Below are positions 1,447 to 18,092 of a stretch of DNA of 25,727 nt, in pieces. The notes under the pieces are model-generated. The model did not search any database and was not told the DNA's origin. It saw only the letters and a list, made by a program, of their open reading frames with translations. The position numbers and the translations under genes were made by a program. Source of the stretch: a virus. How positions within the stretch are numbered: the stretch's first letter is position 1; each line of letters starts with the position of its first letter. The stretch is taken from IMG/VR virus record IMGVR_UViG_3300035698_018473, positions 1-25,727 of that record. One strand, written 5' to 3'.

Positions 1447-3406
1447 CATACAATTCCTATCAGAATTAAACGACCAGAAACCGATTGAACCGCCCCCACG
1501 GTATATATCTAATTATATCGAAGGTCGTAGAATAATGCCGTTGAATACTCCTATCCCGGGACCTTGGGAAAACTGGCGTACTCAATATGGCGTGGAAATA
1601 ATGGATTGCCTGTCTCCGTGGAATCCGACACAACGGGTTGATGTAATGAGTGCAGCGCAGGTAATTAAAACCTCGCTCATGGAAAACACAATCGGTTATT
1701 ATATGGGAGCATGTCCAGCACCTATTCTGTTTATGTCTGCTACAGATGCACTTTTAAACAGATGGGCATCAAAACGACTTGAGCCACTAATCGATTCATT
1801 AGGATTAAGAGACAGATTTATTTCACCTGTTGAATCTGAAAAATCAAGGCGTACAGGGGACACGTCCAGGCAGAAACTATTTTCCGGCGGATTCCTTGAA
1901 ATGGCATCAGCACAGAGCCCTTCCAGCCAACGTGCCGATTCTGTCAGAATACTACTTATTGACGAACCGGATGCAGCACCGGAATTATTGAACACTGGTG
2001 AAGGTTATTTCGATGAAGTTGCTGAAGCCAGATGTAAAGGATGGGGCAACCGGAAGAAAATATTAGCATGTTCCACGCCAACCGAAATGTTAAATTCTAC
2101 AATTCACAGGCGATTCCTATTAGGCGATCAATGCGAATATATGGTCAGATGTCCATTATGTGGAAAATTTCAGCTATTAACCAGAGGGACAGAAAAAGGT
2201 AGTCACGGTCTAAGATGCGAAATGAAAAACGGTCAAATCGAATTTGTTTATTATTTATGTGATTTCTGTCATGATGCTATATTTGAACATCAGAAAAGCG
2301 ATATGATCCGCGGTGGTAAATGGGAGCCAATGGCAAGGCCTGAACGGCTCAGGAGATCATTCCATATCAATTCATTATTGTCTCCGCTTGGAATGTATTC
2401 CTGGATTGACTACATGTCAGATTATAATAAGGCACTTAGAATGCCGGACGGAATGCGATCCCTTACAAATCTAGGGGACGGCTTGCCTTATGTCGTATCA
2501 GGAACAAGACCGAAAGCAGGAAAAATTCTTGAAAATAGAGGCAAATATAAACAGGGCACAGTTCCAGAGGGAGTATTATATTTGACAATCGGATTAGATG
2601 TTCAAAGAGGTTCAAAAACAAATCCGGACAATCCGCCCCGCCTGGAGCTTGAAATTCTTGGAATTGGTTATGGATATCGAACCTGGTCAATTGATTATAA
2701 AGTTTTTGCTGGTGAAATAACAGACGCATTTGATGGGGCTTGGGAAGATCTACACCAATGGGCATGCAAGACAAATTTAATCTATATCAGAGAAATTGAC
2801 GGATTTAAATTCCCTATATCGTTAATATTTTTAGATTCCGGTGATGGCGAGAGTACAGATGTTGTTTACCAATTTTCCCAAAGATGGCAAAACACATTTC
2901 CGATTAAAGGCCAAAGATCAATCATGCGGAAAAAGAATGAAGGCGTTGACGAATTAACAGACATGAGCCACAAGAGATATCGGGCATCTAAAATAAATGA
3001 AGATATTTCTATTTATACAATATCAACAGTATATTATAAAAATCAGATTTACAACAACCTTAAAATTGACCGATTGCCGATTGATCCGCAGAAACCCGGA
3101 TTCTGTGATTTTCCGAATGAATACGGAGAAAAGTATTTTGATATGCTTACTTCAGAGGAAAAAATGCGTGATGGATCATTTGATGCAAAGGGTCGCAGGA
3201 ATGAATCTCTTGATTGTCGTGTTTATGCATTATGTGCAGCCGATGTATTTCTTGATTCTGAATTATTAAATTATAAAGCAGATGCAAAAGAAAAAGGATG
3301 GAATGCCGCCCAGATTCAAAAAATTACCCACAGGAACGTAATTGACGAAATGACAAGGCAAACTCAAGTTGTAAAAAAAATTATGGAAAATAATGAAAAA
3401 TATTAA
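1436..3406 (+). CDS. Terminase large subunit, GpA family
   Basis: A 656-aa packaging motor: an ATPase that pumps DNA into the procapsid plus a nuclease that cuts it. The deviant Walker A region is at about residues 71-80 (MSAAQVIKTS). Walker B is 'RILLIDEPD' at 171-179. The coupling motif is ACSTPT (211-216). A zinc-knuckle-like pair, C239/C242 and C275/C278, is common in this family. The RNase H-like nuclease domain begins at 'GLDVQ' (386-390), with a second acidic residue at D467 and the family's late 'LDCRVYAL' stretch about 60 residues from the end. Length agrees with lambda gpA (641 aa). The 3' end overlaps the methyltransferase start by 14 nt. The GpA type predicts cos-like or related cutting, but no cos site was identified. 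Confidence 0.95.
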   Translation: MNPDIQFLSELNDQKPIEPPPRYISNYIEGRRIMPLNTPIPGPWENWRTQYGVEIMDCLSPWNPTQRVDVMSAAQVIKTSLMENTIGYYMGACPAPILFMSATDALLNRWASKRLEPLIDSLGLRDRFISPVESEKSRRTGDTSRQKLFSGGFLEMASAQSPSSQRADSVRILLIDEPDAAPELLNTGEGYFDEVAEARCKGWGNRKKILACSTPTEMLNSTIHRRFLLGDQCEYMVRCPLCGKFQLLTRGTEKGSHGLRCEMKNGQIEFVYYLCDFCHDAIFEHQKSDMIRGGKWEPMARPERLRRSFHINSLLSPLGMYSWIDYMSDYNKALRMPDGMRSLTNLGDGLPYVVSGTRPKAGKILENRGKYKQGTVPEGVLYLTIGLDVQRGSKTNPDNPPRLELEILGIGYGYRTWSIDYKVFAGEITDAFDGAWEDLHQWACKTNLIYIREIDGFKFPISLIFLDSGDGESTDVVYQFSQRWQNTFPIKGQRSIMRKKNEGVDELTDMSHKRYRASKINEDISIYTISTVYYKNQIYNNLKIDRLPIDPQKPGFCDFPNEYGEKYFDMLTSEEKMRDGSFDAKGRRNESLDCRVYALCAADVFLDSELLNYKADAKEKGWNAAQIQKITHRNVIDEMTRQTQVVKKIMENNEKY

Positions 3407-4172
3407 ATTACACCATGGAGACTGCCTTGATATAATGCCGTCAATTCCTGATAATCATATTGATCTAACAGTAACAAGTCCACCTTATGATAATTTAAGG
3501 ACTTACAATAATTCTCTTGAATGGAATTTTGATATATTCAAAAAGATAGCAAATGAATTATACAGAATTACAAAAGATGGAGGTGTTGTTGTTTGGGTTG
3601 TAGGCGACGCAACAATTAACGGAAGTGAGACAGGCACAAGTTTTAAACAGGCTTTATATTTTATGGAATGCGGTTTTAATTTAGAAACCATGATATGGGA
3701 AAAAACAGGTAGCGGGTGTCTTGGAAGCAATAAATTTTATAGTCAAAATTTTGAATATAATTTTATATTAACTAAGGGGATGCCAAAAACAACAAATTTA
3801 ATATGTGATAGAAAAAATAAAAGTAAAATAAAATTTGTAAAGACAAATGGAAGAATTGATAAAAATGGAAAAAGTACAAACAGGATTATTAAGACAAAAG
3901 AATATGGTAAAAGGAATAATATTTGGCAATTTGATACACAAAAAAATTCAGATCATCCTGCCCCGTTCCCTGAACAATTAGCAAACGACCATATAATTTC
4001 ATGGTCAAACGAAAACGACTTAGTTTTTGATCCATTTATGGGAAGTGGTACAACAGGGAAAATGTCAGTATTAAATAAGCGTAGATTTTACGGAATTGAA
4101 AAGGAATTAAATTATTTTAACATATCAAAACAGAGAATTGAAGATGCACAGGCACAGGGAACTTTATTTTAA
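3393..4172 (+). CDS. DNA N4-cytosine/N6-adenine methyltransferase
   Basis: A 259-aa amino-methyltransferase of the N6_N4_Mtase family. It transfers a methyl group from S-adenosylmethionine to the exocyclic amine of a cytosine or adenine. The catalytic motif TSPPY is at residues 28-32 and the SAM-binding motif DPFMGSGTT at 214-222. This order (catalytic first, SAM last) is the beta class. The 'HPAPFPEQLA' stretch at 189-198 is also typical. No restriction partner lies nearby, so it is an orphan enzyme. It probably protects phage DNA from host restriction or marks it for another purpose. It starts inside the terminase 3' end, so it is in the packaging operon. The region around 3480-3920 looks more AT-rich than its neighbours, which would fit acquisition. 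The target sequence cannot be read from the protein. Confidence 0.9.
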   Translation: MKNIKLHHGDCLDIMPSIPDNHIDLTVTSPPYDNLRTYNNSLEWNFDIFKKIANELYRITKDGGVVVWVVGDATINGSETGTSFKQALYFMECGFNLETMIWEKTGSGCLGSNKFYSQNFEYNFILTKGMPKTTNLICDRKNKSKIKFVKTNGRIDKNGKSTNRIIKTKEYGKRNNIWQFDTQKNSDHPAPFPEQLANDHIISWSNENDLVFDPFMGSGTTGKMSVLNKRRFYGIEKELNYFNISKQRIEDAQAQGTLF

Positions 4173-13229: not shown

Positions 13230-14789
13230 ATGACAATAGGACCTAGTAACCTAGCGGCAGTTAACGGAGTTGGAATAAAGAATGCAAAATTTGCAGTCAC
13301 AGCTCAAGTAGTCGCACAAAAAAATGTAATTATTGGAACATGGGATCAGACAACTTATGCTTCAATTGTTGAAAATGTTCCGATTCGTGTTTTTTCGGCT
13401 GAAGATGTTGGCGGAAAAACAGGATATGGCTTCATGCTTCATAGACTTGCAAAAGCAATGTTCAAGGGCGGAGTTGTAGAAACATGGATCATTCCACAAA
13501 AAGAAGTCGGCTCACCCCCTGCATTATCAGCAGGCGAAGTTGATTTTACAGGAACAGTATTAACAGCAGCCGGAGTTGTGGCTTTATATATAGCAGGCGA
13601 ATTAGTCAGCTATGTTGGAGCAATTGCCGATGCAGACACAGATGTTTCAGATGGATTGGCAGCACTAATTACAGCCGATGATTCATTACCAGTTGAGGCA
13701 ACAAGCCTTGCAGGAGTATTAACATTAACATCAAAATCAGCAGGTGATGATTGGGGCGATAATATTGACATCAGCCTTAATCTTGCAGATGATGATGAAA
13801 GTCCAGCCGGGCTTGCAGCAGTAATTACAGGCATGACAGGCGGAGCAGGCACACCTGATATTCAGGATGCACTTGATGCAATGGGAACAGGTGATGCTCA
13901 GAATGAAAAGAATTTCACAAATCTCAGTCATGGTTATGGATTAGACTCTGCAACACTTGTTGCAATTTCTACATATAACGGGCTTGGAAATACATTTGTT
14001 GGAAACTATAAAAAGGAAATTTCCAGACCGTTCAGATCATTAAATGGTGATACAGATGAAGCATTCGCAGCACTTACGGCTTTACTTGTAATTGCAAATG
14101 CAAACCGGAATGATCGGACTAATGGGATTTTACCGGTTCCAGATTCTCAAAATCATCCTGCAGAAATTGCAGCAATGGCAACCGGAATTATGGCAGTCAC
14201 TAATTCCATCAGGGCAGAAGAAAGTTATATCAATAAACTTCTTCCTGGAATATGGCCCGGAGCAAGAGCCAACCGATGGACGAATGATAATGACAATAGA
14301 AATGATGCAGTTAAAGGCGGTATATCAGCTTCATTTGTTAAAAATGATGCTGTCTATATGAAAAATATCATTACGATGTATCGACCGGCAGATGTTTCAC
14401 CGGAATCAAATGCTTATAGATCAATGAGAAATATTAGCATATTGCAAAACATCGCTTATAATTACCGCGCCAATTTTGACCTTGAGAAATGGCAGGGCAT
14501 AACTATTGTTGAGGATGTGACAGAAGTTTCCGAAACTGTTGATGCAGAAAAAGCAAGAGATACAGATGCAGTAATTGATGACCTTGTTGCACTTGCAAAA
14601 GCATTTGTCGGGAAAGCATGGTTGTATAATGATGTTTATACACTGGCAAATTTGAGTGTAACACTTAGGGCAGGACTTACAGGATTTGATATTTCATTTC
14701 CATGTATCTTGTCAGGCGAAGGTGGAATATTCAACACTAATATTCCTGTTGATACTTCAATTGCCATATTGACCGCAGGAGGTGCATAA
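13230..14789 (+). CDS. Contractile tail sheath protein, Mu gpL-like
   Basis: A 519-aa sheath subunit; its presence makes this a contractile tail. The N-terminal part contains 'PIRVFSAEDVGGKTGYG' (51-67), followed by a variable domain (about 92-210) with 'LTAAGVVALYIAGELVSY' and 'LTLTSKSAGDDWGDNIDIS', a pattern typical of Mu-type sheaths. The C-terminal part has the conserved 'NISILQNIAYNYRANFDL' region near 395-415 and a final tube-facing domain ending 'PVDTSIAILTAGGA'. Mu gpL is 495 aa. A good SD (AAGGAGG) precedes the start. The stop overlaps the tube gene by 1 nt, so sheath and tube are coupled. Confidence 0.93.
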   Translation: MTIGPSNLAAVNGVGIKNAKFAVTAQVVAQKNVIIGTWDQTTYASIVENVPIRVFSAEDVGGKTGYGFMLHRLAKAMFKGGVVETWIIPQKEVGSPPALSAGEVDFTGTVLTAAGVVALYIAGELVSYVGAIADADTDVSDGLAALITADDSLPVEATSLAGVLTLTSKSAGDDWGDNIDISLNLADDDESPAGLAAVITGMTGGAGTPDIQDALDAMGTGDAQNEKNFTNLSHGYGLDSATLVAISTYNGLGNTFVGNYKKEISRPFRSLNGDTDEAFAALTALLVIANANRNDRTNGILPVPDSQNHPAEIAAMATGIMAVTNSIRAEESYINKLLPGIWPGARANRWTNDNDNRNDAVKGGISASFVKNDAVYMKNIITMYRPADVSPESNAYRSMRNISILQNIAYNYRANFDLEKWQGITIVEDVTEVSETVDAEKARDTDAVIDDLVALAKAFVGKAWLYNDVYTLANLSVTLRAGLTGFDISFPCILSGEGGIFNTNIPVDTSIAILTAGGA

Positions 14790-15163
14790 TGCCTAATATT
14801 GGAACTATTGGAAAACTTGTGATTGACGGTGTCAGTTTTGATGTAATGGCAGATGCAAAAGCAAGTTTCAAGAGGGCAGGTTTTGAAATTGAAGGGATTG
14901 CCACAACAGGCGAAACACTTTTCAAGATAACAAAACGTGTTCAGTTAATTGAAGGCGTTGCCATAGCAGGCACACCGGCAAAAATTGAATCATTGGCATT
15001 GAAAGCAGATTCACTTGCAGACTTGACATTATCAATAACATTCGCAGACGGTTCAGTTTATAAAGCAACCGGCAGAATAAAATTTGATACATGGGAATCT
15101 GATACAGGTGAAGCCGTTGTTGATCTGATTCCAAAGAAAACATGGACGCCATTTTTGGCTTAG
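14789..15163 (+). CDS. Tail tube protein, Mu gpM-like
   Basis: A 124-aa protein, close to Mu gpM (118 aa). It polymerises around the tape measure to form the inner tube through which DNA passes. Visible features: the beta-strand start 'GKLVIDGVSFDVMADAKASFK' region (residues 8-28), the tube loop 'GFEIEGIATTGETLFKI', then 'LTLSITFADGSVYKATGRI' and the last strand 'GEAVVDLIPKKTW'. Starts in a TAATG overlap with the sheath. It is followed by the glycosyltransferase instead of the usual chaperone. Confidence 0.88.
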   Translation: MPNIGTIGKLVIDGVSFDVMADAKASFKRAGFEIEGIATTGETLFKITKRVQLIEGVAIAGTPAKIESLALKADSLADLTLSITFADGSVYKATGRIKFDTWESDTGEAVVDLIPKKTWTPFLA

Positions 15164-15172
15164 GTGATATAA

Positions 15173-15991
15173 ATGTTGCCGGTATATATTTTAATTCGTT
15201 CATCAAACCGCCCTGAATTTTTCAGGCGAATGATGTTGACAATAGAAAATCAAACTTATGAGAATATTGTTACAATCGTTCATTCAGATGATCCGAGAGA
15301 TAAATATATTACCGGCGATATTATAATCAGGGGGTCGTCTTATGGTCCAGCTTATGGCAATGCCCCTTATAATTTATATAATAACAGATTATTAAATGCA
15401 ATACCAGATCAGGAAGGATGGTTTTGTTTCATGGATGATGATGATGAATATTCAAATCCTGATTCGATTGAAAAGATTGTTGCAGCTTCAGAAATCGACA
15501 AAATAAATGTATGCCGCGTTGAACGATGGGACGGGAAAATATTTCCTGCAAATTGGAGAGCGCAGAAAACATATCAAACAGAATGTTTTTTCCTACACAC
15601 CAGCCACAGAAAAAAGGGCAAATGGTGGGGACATAAAGGAGGTGATCACAACTACTCGAAGCAGTTGACACAAGTATTACAGATAAACTGGATTGAAGAT
15701 TTGATATTATGCAGGGCACAGGAGGGAAAAGGACACGGTCGAAAGTTGGATAAAAATAATAAAACTATTGACAAATCAAAATCTTTCAAGTCTGATGAAC
15801 AGGTTATTTGTCTTGGACTTGTACCAGTCAAGGCACCAAATAAAAAAGAGAGAATAGGGCAAGGGGAGTATCGAAGATTGCCTTATGAATTGGCTTACAG
15901 ATATGAACAGGAAGGAAAAGTAAAAATAACGTATGCAAATTTGTCACAGGACGCAGTCCCTGACAGAATAAATAAATTTTTTAAAACTTAA
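15173..15991 (+). CDS. Family 2-like glycosyltransferase inside the tail operon
   Basis: A 272-aa GT-A fold sugar transferase. The N-terminus 'PVYILIRSSNRPEFF' (3-17) followed by 'SIENQTY'-like 'TIENQTYENIVTIV' is the typical nucleotide-sugar fold start. 'FCFMDDDDEY' (84-93) carries the metal-binding DxD. A 'GHKGGDHNYSK' segment (153-163) may be in the acceptor or catalytic region. The C-terminal third (about 205-272) is basic. No transmembrane segment is present, so it acts in the cytoplasm, on a protein or nucleotide-linked acceptor. An AGGTGAT SD (15162-15168) supports the start. Mu-like phages have tube followed directly by chaperone, so this is an insertion. Possible targets are a virion protein such as tube or sheath, modified phage DNA, or host surface glycan precursors. 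The acceptor is unknown. Confidence 0.8.
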   Translation: MLPVYILIRSSNRPEFFRRMMLTIENQTYENIVTIVHSDDPRDKYITGDIIIRGSSYGPAYGNAPYNLYNNRLLNAIPDQEGWFCFMDDDDEYSNPDSIEKIVAASEIDKINVCRVERWDGKIFPANWRAQKTYQTECFFLHTSHRKKGKWWGHKGGDHNYSKQLTQVLQINWIEDLILCRAQEGKGHGRKLDKNNKTIDKSKSFKSDEQVICLGLVPVKAPNKKERIGQGEYRRLPYELAYRYEQEGKVKITYANLSQDAVPDRINKFFKT

Positions 15992-16006: not shown

Positions 16007-16435
16007 ATGACAGATGCAATATTAAAACAGGAAAATATTTTATCAAAAGGAAATGCGAAAAACGAATTACAAAAGATGTTTGATTATTATGAAATCGACA
16101 TTGATGAAATGGATGACAAGGATTTAAAAAAAGCAATTAAGAGCGGATTTTCTCAGCTTGTAAAAGGGACAATGAAGGGTCGGCTTCAAATTAAACTTGA
16201 AGAAAAAGGCATAAAAATAATTCAGAAAACAAGATCAGGAACAGAAATAGTTTACAGAGAAATTGACGGAAATGCAAAATCAGAAATGGACGGATTCGGA
16301 GCAACAGATTTTTACAGCAAATCATACGCTTTAATGGGTGCACTTTCTGAACTTGGAGCTGATGCAATTAAGCAATTAAAGGGAGTTGACTTGTCAATGG
16401 CAGAAACACTTGGCATGATTTTCCTGTCAGTGTAA
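16007..16435 (+). CDS. Tail assembly chaperone, zero-frame product (Mu gp41 position)
   Basis: A 142-aa protein in the position of Mu gp41, between tube and tape measure. Chaperones of this class coat the tape measure and recruit tube subunits. The sequence is mostly helical, with an N-terminal acidic part, a central 'KGRLQIKLEEKGIKIIQKTRSGTEIVYREI' strand region split over residues about 59-88, and a helical end. An AGGTGG SD precedes the start. It stops at 16435, but the -1 frame remains open from 16390 to 16635 and has no usable start codon near its beginning, so a longer frameshifted form is likely (see separate entry). Confidence 0.75.
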   Translation: MTDAILKQENILSKGNAKNELQKMFDYYEIDIDEMDDKDLKKAIKSGFSQLVKGTMKGRLQIKLEEKGIKIIQKTRSGTEIVYREIDGNAKSEMDGFGATDFYSKSYALMGALSELGADAIKQLKGVDLSMAETLGMIFLSV

Positions 16436-16635
16436 ATCGATTATGGCAATGGGAAGGAAATTTATTTTCCCGCGGACAATCGATTGATGTTATTAAAAAT
16501 TTAAGATATGCAGAATTAAAGGAGTGGAATATTTGGCATGAACTTATGGCAGACGCAGAATCAAAAACAAAATGTTCCAAATGCGGTGCAAGTTATGACA
16601 GCCGGAAATATAAGAATTGCCCGAGGTGTAAATAG
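16390..16635 (+). CDS. -1 frame extension of the tail assembly chaperone, ending in a zinc ribbon
   Basis: This reading frame is open for 81 codons and continues the chaperone in the -1 frame. It has no ATG, GTG or TTG until an ATG at 16546, so it is best explained by programmed frameshifting, as in lambda G/GT, P2 E/E' and the Mu-like chaperones. The likely slip is in 16417-16423 (GATTTTC), where tRNA-Phe on TTC can re-pair with TTT. A two-tier stem (AATCGATT 16435-16442 with 16478-16485; GGGAA 16451-16455 with TTCCC 16467-16471) begins about 11 nt downstream. The product has Trp-rich 'NRLWQWEGN', a helix 'AELKEWNIWHELMADAES', and a C-terminal zinc ribbon CSKCG...CPRCK. Its TAG stop overlaps the tape measure GTG by 1 nt. 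Shifting is inferred; the slippery site is not a classic heptamer. Confidence 0.7.
   Translation, partial: LVNGRNTWHDFPVSVNRLWQWEGNLFSRGQSIDVIKNLRYAELKEWNIWHELMADAESKTKCSKCGASYDSRKYKNCPRCK
16435..16485 (+). promoter_or_regulatory. RNA stem-loop downstream of the candidate frameshift site
   Basis: Outer stem AATCGATT (16435-16442) with AATCGATT (16478-16485), inner stem GGGAA (16451-16455) with TTCCC (16467-16471). It begins at the zero-frame stop of the chaperone, a suitable distance to pause ribosomes over 16417-16423. AATCGATT is itself palindromic, which allows alternative pairing. Function is inferred. Confidence 0.45.
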
Positions 16636-18092
16636 TGTCTGATTTTGCAGTAAGAACCGGATTTTTCGGTACAGATAAATTAAGCCCAGTCTTTAAAAGG
16701 ATGGGGAAAAATGCTGACGTATTCGGAAATAAGGGTCAGCGTGCAATGGGAAAAATGGGTCGTGGCGTTGCCAGCTTAAAGGCAGGCATGAAATCTATGT
16801 TGCCATTATTCGGAGTTGCTGCAATTGCACATTTTGCCAATAGGGCAATAAATTTAGCAAGTGCATTGACAGAAGTTCAAAATGTTGTTGATACTACATT
16901 CGGAAAAGGTGCAGCAACAATAAATAAATTCGCAGATACAGCCATTGAAAAATTTGGTCTGTCAGAATTACAGGCAAAAGAATTCACAGGAACACTTGGC
17001 GCAATGGCTGTATCAAGTGGTATTGCTGGAGATGATCTTATCAAAATGACAAAGGATATTGTAGGTCTTGCCGGTGATTTTGCATCATTTAGAGACATGC
17101 AACCTGAAGAAGCCTTTACAAGTTTACAGTCTGTTGTCACTGGAATGGCAATGCCAATGCGAAGATTTGGTGTCGATTTAACAATTTCAAGTTTAAAGGC
17201 TTTTATGTTATCAAAAGGAATGAGGAAGTCGTGGGAACAAATGTCGCAAGCTGAAAGAATAATGTTAAGATATAAATTCATTATGGAAAAAACAAAAATT
17301 GCACAAGGAGACTTTGCAAAAACTCTTGATGAATCTTATGCGAATCAAAAGAGGGTATTGAGTACTAAATTTGATCAAGCAATGGCAAAAATAGCAGTGA
17401 AAATTTTACCGAGACTAATAGAATTATTTCAAAATTTGAATCAAGGACTTACAAAATTAAATACTGATAAAATTGGTGACTGGCTTCTAATGATGGTTGA
17501 TGTAGTCCCTCCATTAGTCAAGGCATTTTTGGCTTATAAGGCTGTAATGATAGGAATTGCATTTGTGAAGGGAGTTTTAGCAGTAAGAACAGCGGCATTA
17601 ACAGCCTTAAAGTGGTTAAGCGTCACAGCAACCAATGCAAGTACTTTGTCATTATACGGTGCAGCAACAGCAACAGAAGTTGCAACAGTTGCAACAAGTG
17701 GATTTGGTGCTTCGATTATTGCCGCCACTTGGCCCGTGCTTGCCCTACTTGCAGCATTGACCGCAGTAGTTTTAATTTATAAAAACTGGGATAAAACACA
17801 AGCGGCATTTGATAAATCAGGCATTAAATCAGGAATGTCAAAACAGGAAATTGAAAGTGGTGAAGGTGCTGGTTTTTTTGGAGCATTTGCAAAAGGTTTG
17901 CAAAATCCTAAATTTAACCAAATAGATATGTCGTCCCCGACAGCCCCTAATGAAGCGCAAACTTTAAAAAATGAATCTCAGGCATTAGAGGGAAAAATAA
18001 CAGTAGTTAATGAATCAGAAACTGCAACACTAAGAGCAGAAAACAAGGGAGCCAAAGGAATCGATTTTAATGTGATAGGTCAAAATCCATGA
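16635..18092 (+). CDS. Tape measure protein
   Basis: A 485-aa protein that sets tail length and exits ahead of the DNA. It begins at GTG 16635 behind GAGGTG (16623-16628). Residues 9-60 are basic and helical with 'KMGRGVASLKAGMKS'. The region 75-260 carries the TP901-type tape measure pattern: 'ALTEVQNVVDTTFGKG', 'FGLSELQAKEFTGTLGAMA', 'QPEEAFTSLQSVVTGM', 'KTLDESYANQKRVLS'. Two hydrophobic segments at about 298-316 and 361-383 could insert into the host membrane during ejection. At about 1.5 A per residue this predicts a short tail of roughly 70 nm. It ends in an ATGA overlap with the next gene. Confidence 0.88.
   Translation: MSDFAVRTGFFGTDKLSPVFKRMGKNADVFGNKGQRAMGKMGRGVASLKAGMKSMLPLFGVAAIAHFANRAINLASALTEVQNVVDTTFGKGAATINKFADTAIEKFGLSELQAKEFTGTLGAMAVSSGIAGDDLIKMTKDIVGLAGDFASFRDMQPEEAFTSLQSVVTGMAMPMRRFGVDLTISSLKAFMLSKGMRKSWEQMSQAERIMLRYKFIMEKTKIAQGDFAKTLDESYANQKRVLSTKFDQAMAKIAVKILPRLIELFQNLNQGLTKLNTDKIGDWLLMMVDVVPPLVKAFLAYKAVMIGIAFVKGVLAVRTAALTALKWLSVTATNASTLSLYGAATATEVATVATSGFGASIIAATWPVLALLAALTAVVLIYKNWDKTQAAFDKSGIKSGMSKQEIESGEGAGFFGAFAKGLQNPKFNQIDMSSPTAPNEAQTLKNESQALEGKITVVNESETATLRAENKGAKGIDFNVIGQNP

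Follow-up and report, generated by a model that had tools for sequence, protein, structure and literature searches.

Genes and reading frames at the locus

The window, by which we mean the whole 25,727-nucleotide stretch analyzed (a 25.7-kb virus record, IMGVR_UViG_3300035698_018473), carries a contractile-tail structural module that includes GpA-type terminase, sheath, tube, chaperone, and tape measure genes, and further structural genes for DNA_circ_N, a GpP/gp44-like hub, and baseplate J. The gene order is sheath-tube-(GT2-like ORF)-chaperone-tape measure; the small chaperone ORF thus lies between the tube and tape measure genes, as the G/GT class of tail chaperones requires, with the GT2-like ORF intervening. 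The features considered here are as follows:

14789..15163, + strand: tail tube protein (phrog_4699 tail tube, E = 8e-7), with which the extension presumably associates
16007..16435, + strand: zero-frame tail assembly chaperone, 142 aa, in the position of gpG and P2 gpE, directly before the tape measure gene
16390..16635, + strand: −1 frame extension ORF, which ribosomes probably enter at about 16423 (70 codons), with a predicted fusion of 209 aa
16420..16426, + strand: putative −1 slip site T_TTC_CTG, with Phe139 in the P site and Leu140 in the A site, aligned with T_TTT_TTA/G in most relatives
16435..16485, + strand: putative stimulatory two-tier stem, with an 8-nt spacer after the slip A-site codon
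16549..16632, + strand: C-terminal zinc-ribbon-like tip with its lead-in, CSKC-X11-CPRC
16635..18092, + strand: tail tape measure protein, 485 aa (phrog_1535, E = 3e-31; phrog_8462, E = 1e-21), presumed client of the chaperone

The chaperone ORF occupies the zero frame from 16007 to 16432 on the + strand and ends with TAA at 16433-16435. The −1 frame is open for 81 codons (16390-16632), its TAG (16633-16635) overlaps the GTG of the tape measure gene (16635-16637) by 1 nt, and it shares only 16390-16432 (43 nt) with the zero frame. These readings, first made in a first-pass annotation, are visible in the sequence, and so is the lack of a start for the second ORF: the single ATG, GTG, or TTG in the −1 frame is the ATG at 16546, which comes 3′ of the conserved core described below. 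The tape measure protein is short and therefore implies a short tail.

The ORF at 15173-15991 has a sub-threshold match to GT2 glycosyltransferases (PF00535, E = 1.7e-4), and its place between tube and chaperone is unusual. Directly upstream of the terminase large subunit gene, 200-1258 encodes a 352-aa protein with an HNH endonuclease domain (PF01844, E = 1e-11), which may be an HNH/small-terminase fusion because its N- and C-terminal parts resemble a terminase small subunit. A DNA methylase gene (3393-4172; PF01555, E = 3e-38) has terminase and portal genes on either side.

Identity of the zero-frame protein

The chaperone matched phrog_4648 over residues 7-140 of 142 (E = 2e-9), and 36 of the 39 chaperones in the set of loci described below matched the same family, which has no function annotation and is modeled without frameshift and extension. 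The top three viral-library fold matches to its AF2 model (pLDDT 93) were unnamed phage proteins (best E = 1e-6), and those at ranks 4 and 6 were annotated "Tail assembly chaperone" (E = 0.05-0.07, prob = 0.89 and 1.00). These matches, together with the position before the tape measure gene, bear out the first-pass identification as a tail chaperone. Neither the chaperone nor the extension had a significant family match in Pfam or NCBIfam, tblastn of either against GenBank phages gave no match or chance matches only, and PDB sequence searches and fold searches returned nothing significant. The assignment of phrog_4648 as a frameshifted tail chaperone is a new point.

Conservation of and selection on the −1 frame

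Relatives were obtained from an IMG/VR profile search and one scan of bacterial and archaeal genomes, with close duplicates omitted, which gave 39 distinct junctions (the window and 38 viral or MAG loci); the tape measure protein as bait was without success for finding relatives. L017 and L018, which end before the junction, were excluded, and L054, among the 39, ends inside the extension. Three relatives are in bacterial MAGs, two of which are named (Zixiibacteriota and Desulfuromonadales). The extension was in the −1 frame in all 37 other loci readable past the junction, and a single-frame fusion or a destroyed extension frame occurred in none of them; across junctions the zero-frame stop comes 6-12 nt after the slip codon pair. 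The alignment of homologous loci, which had been suggested as a check, thus shows the frame kept throughout. None of the outcomes named as speaking against the proposal was seen: no relative has the frame mutated away or one continuous frame, and the window lacks a start codon ahead of the conserved core. The core of the extension in relatives reads WQWxGNLFxRxQxIxxIKxLRxAExxEWNxWHExM. At L016:4378-4557 the −1 frame is open and several near-invariant residues are lost (VWMGTLIS..EWISIIEMM), perhaps from a local frame disturbance.

Synonymous and nonsynonymous differences were counted 3′ of the zero-frame stop in 13 close relatives. The resulting pN/pS was 0.28 in the −1 frame vs 1.20 and 1.20 in the other two frames, and pairwise values in the −1 frame were 0.24, 0.25, and 0.20 for the window against L002, L006, and L020, respectively; because pS is near saturation, these ratios indicate which way selection acts but not precisely how strongly. 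Purifying selection acts on the −1 frame only, and the extension is, as in the G/GT class, a conserved overlapping frame without its own start that is selected as protein. The window itself is a single metagenomic contig, which leaves room for a sequencing error in what is really one continuous frame, or for a dead extension. Error was rejected on the two-frame layout of 37 other distinct loci with their closely placed stops, and selection on the extension speaks against decay; we give the two together a negligible probability.

Alternatively, the extension might be translated independently of the chaperone, starting at a non-AUG codon or at the ATG at 16546, the latter giving a 29-aa zinc ribbon. 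An ATG aligns near the 16546 position in most relatives, and many have one inside WQWMG; the window, however, has GAA where relatives have the WQWMG ATG, and so has no start before its conserved core. Internal initiation was rejected because even the first residues of the core, upstream of that ATG, are conserved. Moreover, members that lack the zinc tip conserve Met44 just as those that carry it do, the GGAG nearest ATG 16546 is ~18 nt away, and the slip codon and stem are placed exactly as a frameshift would require, so that we regard an own start as very improbable.

Probable slip site

An in-frame T_TTY (Phe) was present within the last eight codons at 39 of 39 junctions vs 11 of 507 background stretches (eight-codon stretches elsewhere in the same genes), and T_TTY_TTN at 29 of 39 vs 0 of 507. 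The aligned codons in relatives are mostly ATT, CTT, or GTT followed by TTT and TTA or TTG, i.e., T_TTT_TTR. The window and L002 have ATG ATT TTC CTG TCA GTG TAR in common, and other members have CTC, TCG, or ATC as the A-site codon; within this homologous set, the A-site half varies (TTA/TTG, TTC-led, CTC, TCG, ATC, CTG) and T_TTY and the stem position are constant. The overlap thus holds a slippery sequence, as it does in the G/GT class, and in the window this sequence is degenerate (T_TTC_CTG).

The first-pass annotation had taken GATTTTC as the slip point. The site is indeed nonstandard, but the heptamer has to be moved: the relatives place it at T_TTC_CTG (16420-16426), not at G_ATT_TTC (16417-16423). 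The two readings share the same Phe codon and differ in which neighboring tRNA mispairs. We infer from the comparison with relatives that the Phe codon is more probably read in the P site; the A-site reading would require re-pairing of the Ile-tRNA with GAT. The suggestion of a new frameshift signal could not be sustained, since relatives carry an ordinary T_TTT_TTR, the heptamer kind of P2, at the same codon and a 3′ stem; the alignment indicates that the window site is a weakened form of this ordinary signal.

A-site re-pairing in the window heptamer is poor (CTG to CCT). In 8 of 20 loci (L003-L024), an SD-like element (GGAGGTG/GAGGTG) precedes the heptamer by 11-12 nt; it is absent from the window and L002. 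This is the spacing of the dnaX type, and the element may simply reflect Ala-Glu-Val codons. Given the poor A-site re-pairing and the absence of the SD-like element, frameshift efficiency in the window may be low. Annotated sites without an XXXYYYZ heptamer do exist, as the authors of PRFect noted (PMC10885494).

Downstream RNA structure

The two-tier stem that had been proposed downstream of the slip point is present in the window: its outer stem pairs 16435-16442 with 16478-16485 (both arms AATCGATT) and encloses 16451-16457 / 16465-16471. Taken alone, the window stem did not differ significantly from shuffles (z = −1.0 to −1.5; +0.3 over 104 nt). The family was scanned in 60-nt segments against dinucleotide shuffles (33 loci, 30 offsets), and the mean z was −1.77 for segments starting 6 nt past the slip A-site codon, compared with values between −0.53 and +0.29 at the 29 other offsets; a finer scan of 39 loci peaked at a mean z of −1.90 at +4 nt, the loci scanned being mutually related and hence incompletely independent. 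Across the family, RNA structure is thus enriched nowhere but 4-8 nt past the slip site. The arms differ among loci, so that what is kept is a stem at this place and not one particular sequence. L057 (2960-3010) and L058 have a long near-perfect hairpin after the slip site and an extension ~12 codons longer.

Most relatives have 7-8 consecutive T at the slip site, which would suit slippage of the transcript on the T run in place of ribosomal slippage. The run is, however, only four T long in the window and L002 (ATTTTCC) and five in L032, L048, L049, and L063, and published transcriptional slippage occurs on longer runs (A over 7, T over 8; PMC3711429). Transcriptional slippage was rejected on these short runs; the downstream structure and its spacing also fit ribosomal slippage, and we rate the transcriptional route as marginally less probable even than an own start.

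The zinc-ribbon-like tip

The first-pass annotation reported a zinc ribbon in the −1 frame, and CSKC(X11)CPRC is there as described, its metal binding being a prediction. The four-Cys tip occurs in 5 of 39 sequences (the window, L006, L010, L020, and L022), all four Cys being kept, with spacings of CX2C-X11-CX2C in the window, CX2C-X11-CXC in L006, L020, and L022, and CX2C-X9-CXC in L010; the five sequences thus each have two CxxC/CxC knuckles ~10-20 residues apart, as in a zinc ribbon. All five carriers fall within one supported clade of 16 (100/97) that includes tipless members; four changes are needed to place the tip on the tree, and well-supported branches force at least two. The tip is accessory and not part of the conserved core.

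The HMM search of the extension that had been suggested gave sub-threshold Pfam zinc-ribbon matches and no zinc-ribbon profile above the cut-off (best Zn_ribbon_15, 17.3 vs 28.9 bits). In the AF2 model of the extension (pLDDT 87), a short beta hairpin (E50-52, E59-61) comes after three helices and lies at the first Cys pair, and the weak PDB matches were mostly metal sites, including rubredoxin, PHD, and RBR fingers. The four cysteines might bind no zinc, a reading that concerns the tip only and is independent of the frameshift; the sub-threshold profile matches, the Cys spacing that varies among carriers, and the weakness of the fold matches are in its favor. All five carriers nevertheless keep the four Cys, pN/pS of the zinc tail alone is 0.35 (window, L006, L020, and L022), the modeled hairpin sits at the first pair, and metal sites dominate the fold matches. 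On sequence and model, zinc binding is likely, and we consider a non-binding tip unlikely, although with an appreciable chance. The tip would most likely serve as a metal-stabilized cap or an extra contact surface at the chaperone-tube interface. A zinc tip on a tail assembly chaperone was not described in the literature searched, where zinc-ribbon mentions in connection with tail chaperones concerned a reference on an HNH nuclease and a gene unrelated to this one.

Proposed mechanism and significance

The conserved frame, the selection on it, the slip codon, and the position of the structure argue for the programmed −1 frameshift that the first-pass annotation had proposed. We hold with high confidence that this is a G/GT-type gene with a stem-aided −1 slip on T_TTC, a 209-aa fusion product, and a zinc-ribbon-like tip present in few relatives. 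Most ribosomes would stop at 16433-16435 and release the 142-aa chaperone. A minority, on reaching the Phe codon at 16421-16423, would shift one base backward, tRNA-Phe moving from TTC to the overlapping TTT at 16420-16422 with the aid of the stem 8 nt downstream, and would read the −1 frame to 16632. The predicted junction is ...LGMIF|PVSVNRLWQW..., or ...LGMIFL|VSVNR... if the A site already holds Leu-tRNA and this slips as well. On the pattern of lambda and P2, the short form would coat the tape measure protein, and the long form would recruit tail tube subunits through its helical extension.

A more specific version is tentative, and we think it somewhat doubtful as a whole: that the window and L002 use a single-tRNA slip with a mispairing A-site codon, that the family forms a series needing only T_TTY and a stem, and that a zinc-dependent tip tunes the tube contact.

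With this reading, phrog_4648, a phage family without annotation, gains a function and a recoding event. The natural series of A-site codons, with T_TTY and stem position fixed, offers a ready test of the minimal phage −1 site. New here are the degenerate T_TTC_CTG, which two diverged phages have retained, and the zinc-ribbon-like tip. The predicted metal binding of the tip, if true, would give a handle on how the long chaperone contacts the tail tube, an interaction that is poorly known.

Comparison with known systems

The G/GT class of frameshifted tail assembly chaperones reportedly goes back to Xu et al. in 2004. In lambda, gpG and gpGT are likewise a short and a frameshifted long chaperone between the tube and tape measure genes; the slip site and extension of lambda differ from those of the window. 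In phage Mu, the tail genes are ordered alike (the Mu type) and recoding occurs at the corresponding position (PMC2628397, PMC5009743), with a frameshift of −2 in contrast to −1 in the window, and the chaperone showed no similarity to the Mu gp41 profile (hhalign prob = 0.1). Recoding at the chaperone place by −1, −2, or +1 shifts is well known (PMC5009743, PMC2628397, PMC10885494); in the lambda model, G forms a coat on the tape measure and T brings in the tube protein (PMC5009743), and measured frameshift efficiencies of HK97-like chaperones are 6-7% (PMC3711429).

For P2, we took the facts from the annotated P2 record. Its gpE and E+E′ resemble the window in having a chaperone before the tape measure gene and a −1 frame extension, and the heptamer at its annotated −1 site is T_TTT_TTG, as in many relatives, whereas that of the window is T_TTC_CTG. 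The zero-frame chaperone was unrelated to the P2 gpE profile (hhalign prob = 0.2), and the extension had no match to Pfam GpE. A helical extension with a PSE(I/L)..M...EL..W motif is seen in P2 E′ and in this family; the extension of the window is longer than that of P2 and has the WQWMGNLF motif, and P2 lacks the zinc tip. When the extension core was aligned to a set of nine E′ sequences of the P2 type (hhalign E = 3.9e-5, prob = 70.6, 21 columns), the result was suggestive of homology without proving it. Judged by its sequence, the locus is of the known G/GT (P2 E/E+E′) kind of tail-chaperone frameshift, and because the extension core resembles P2 E′, its departures from that kind are limited to the zinc tip and the degenerate heptamer.
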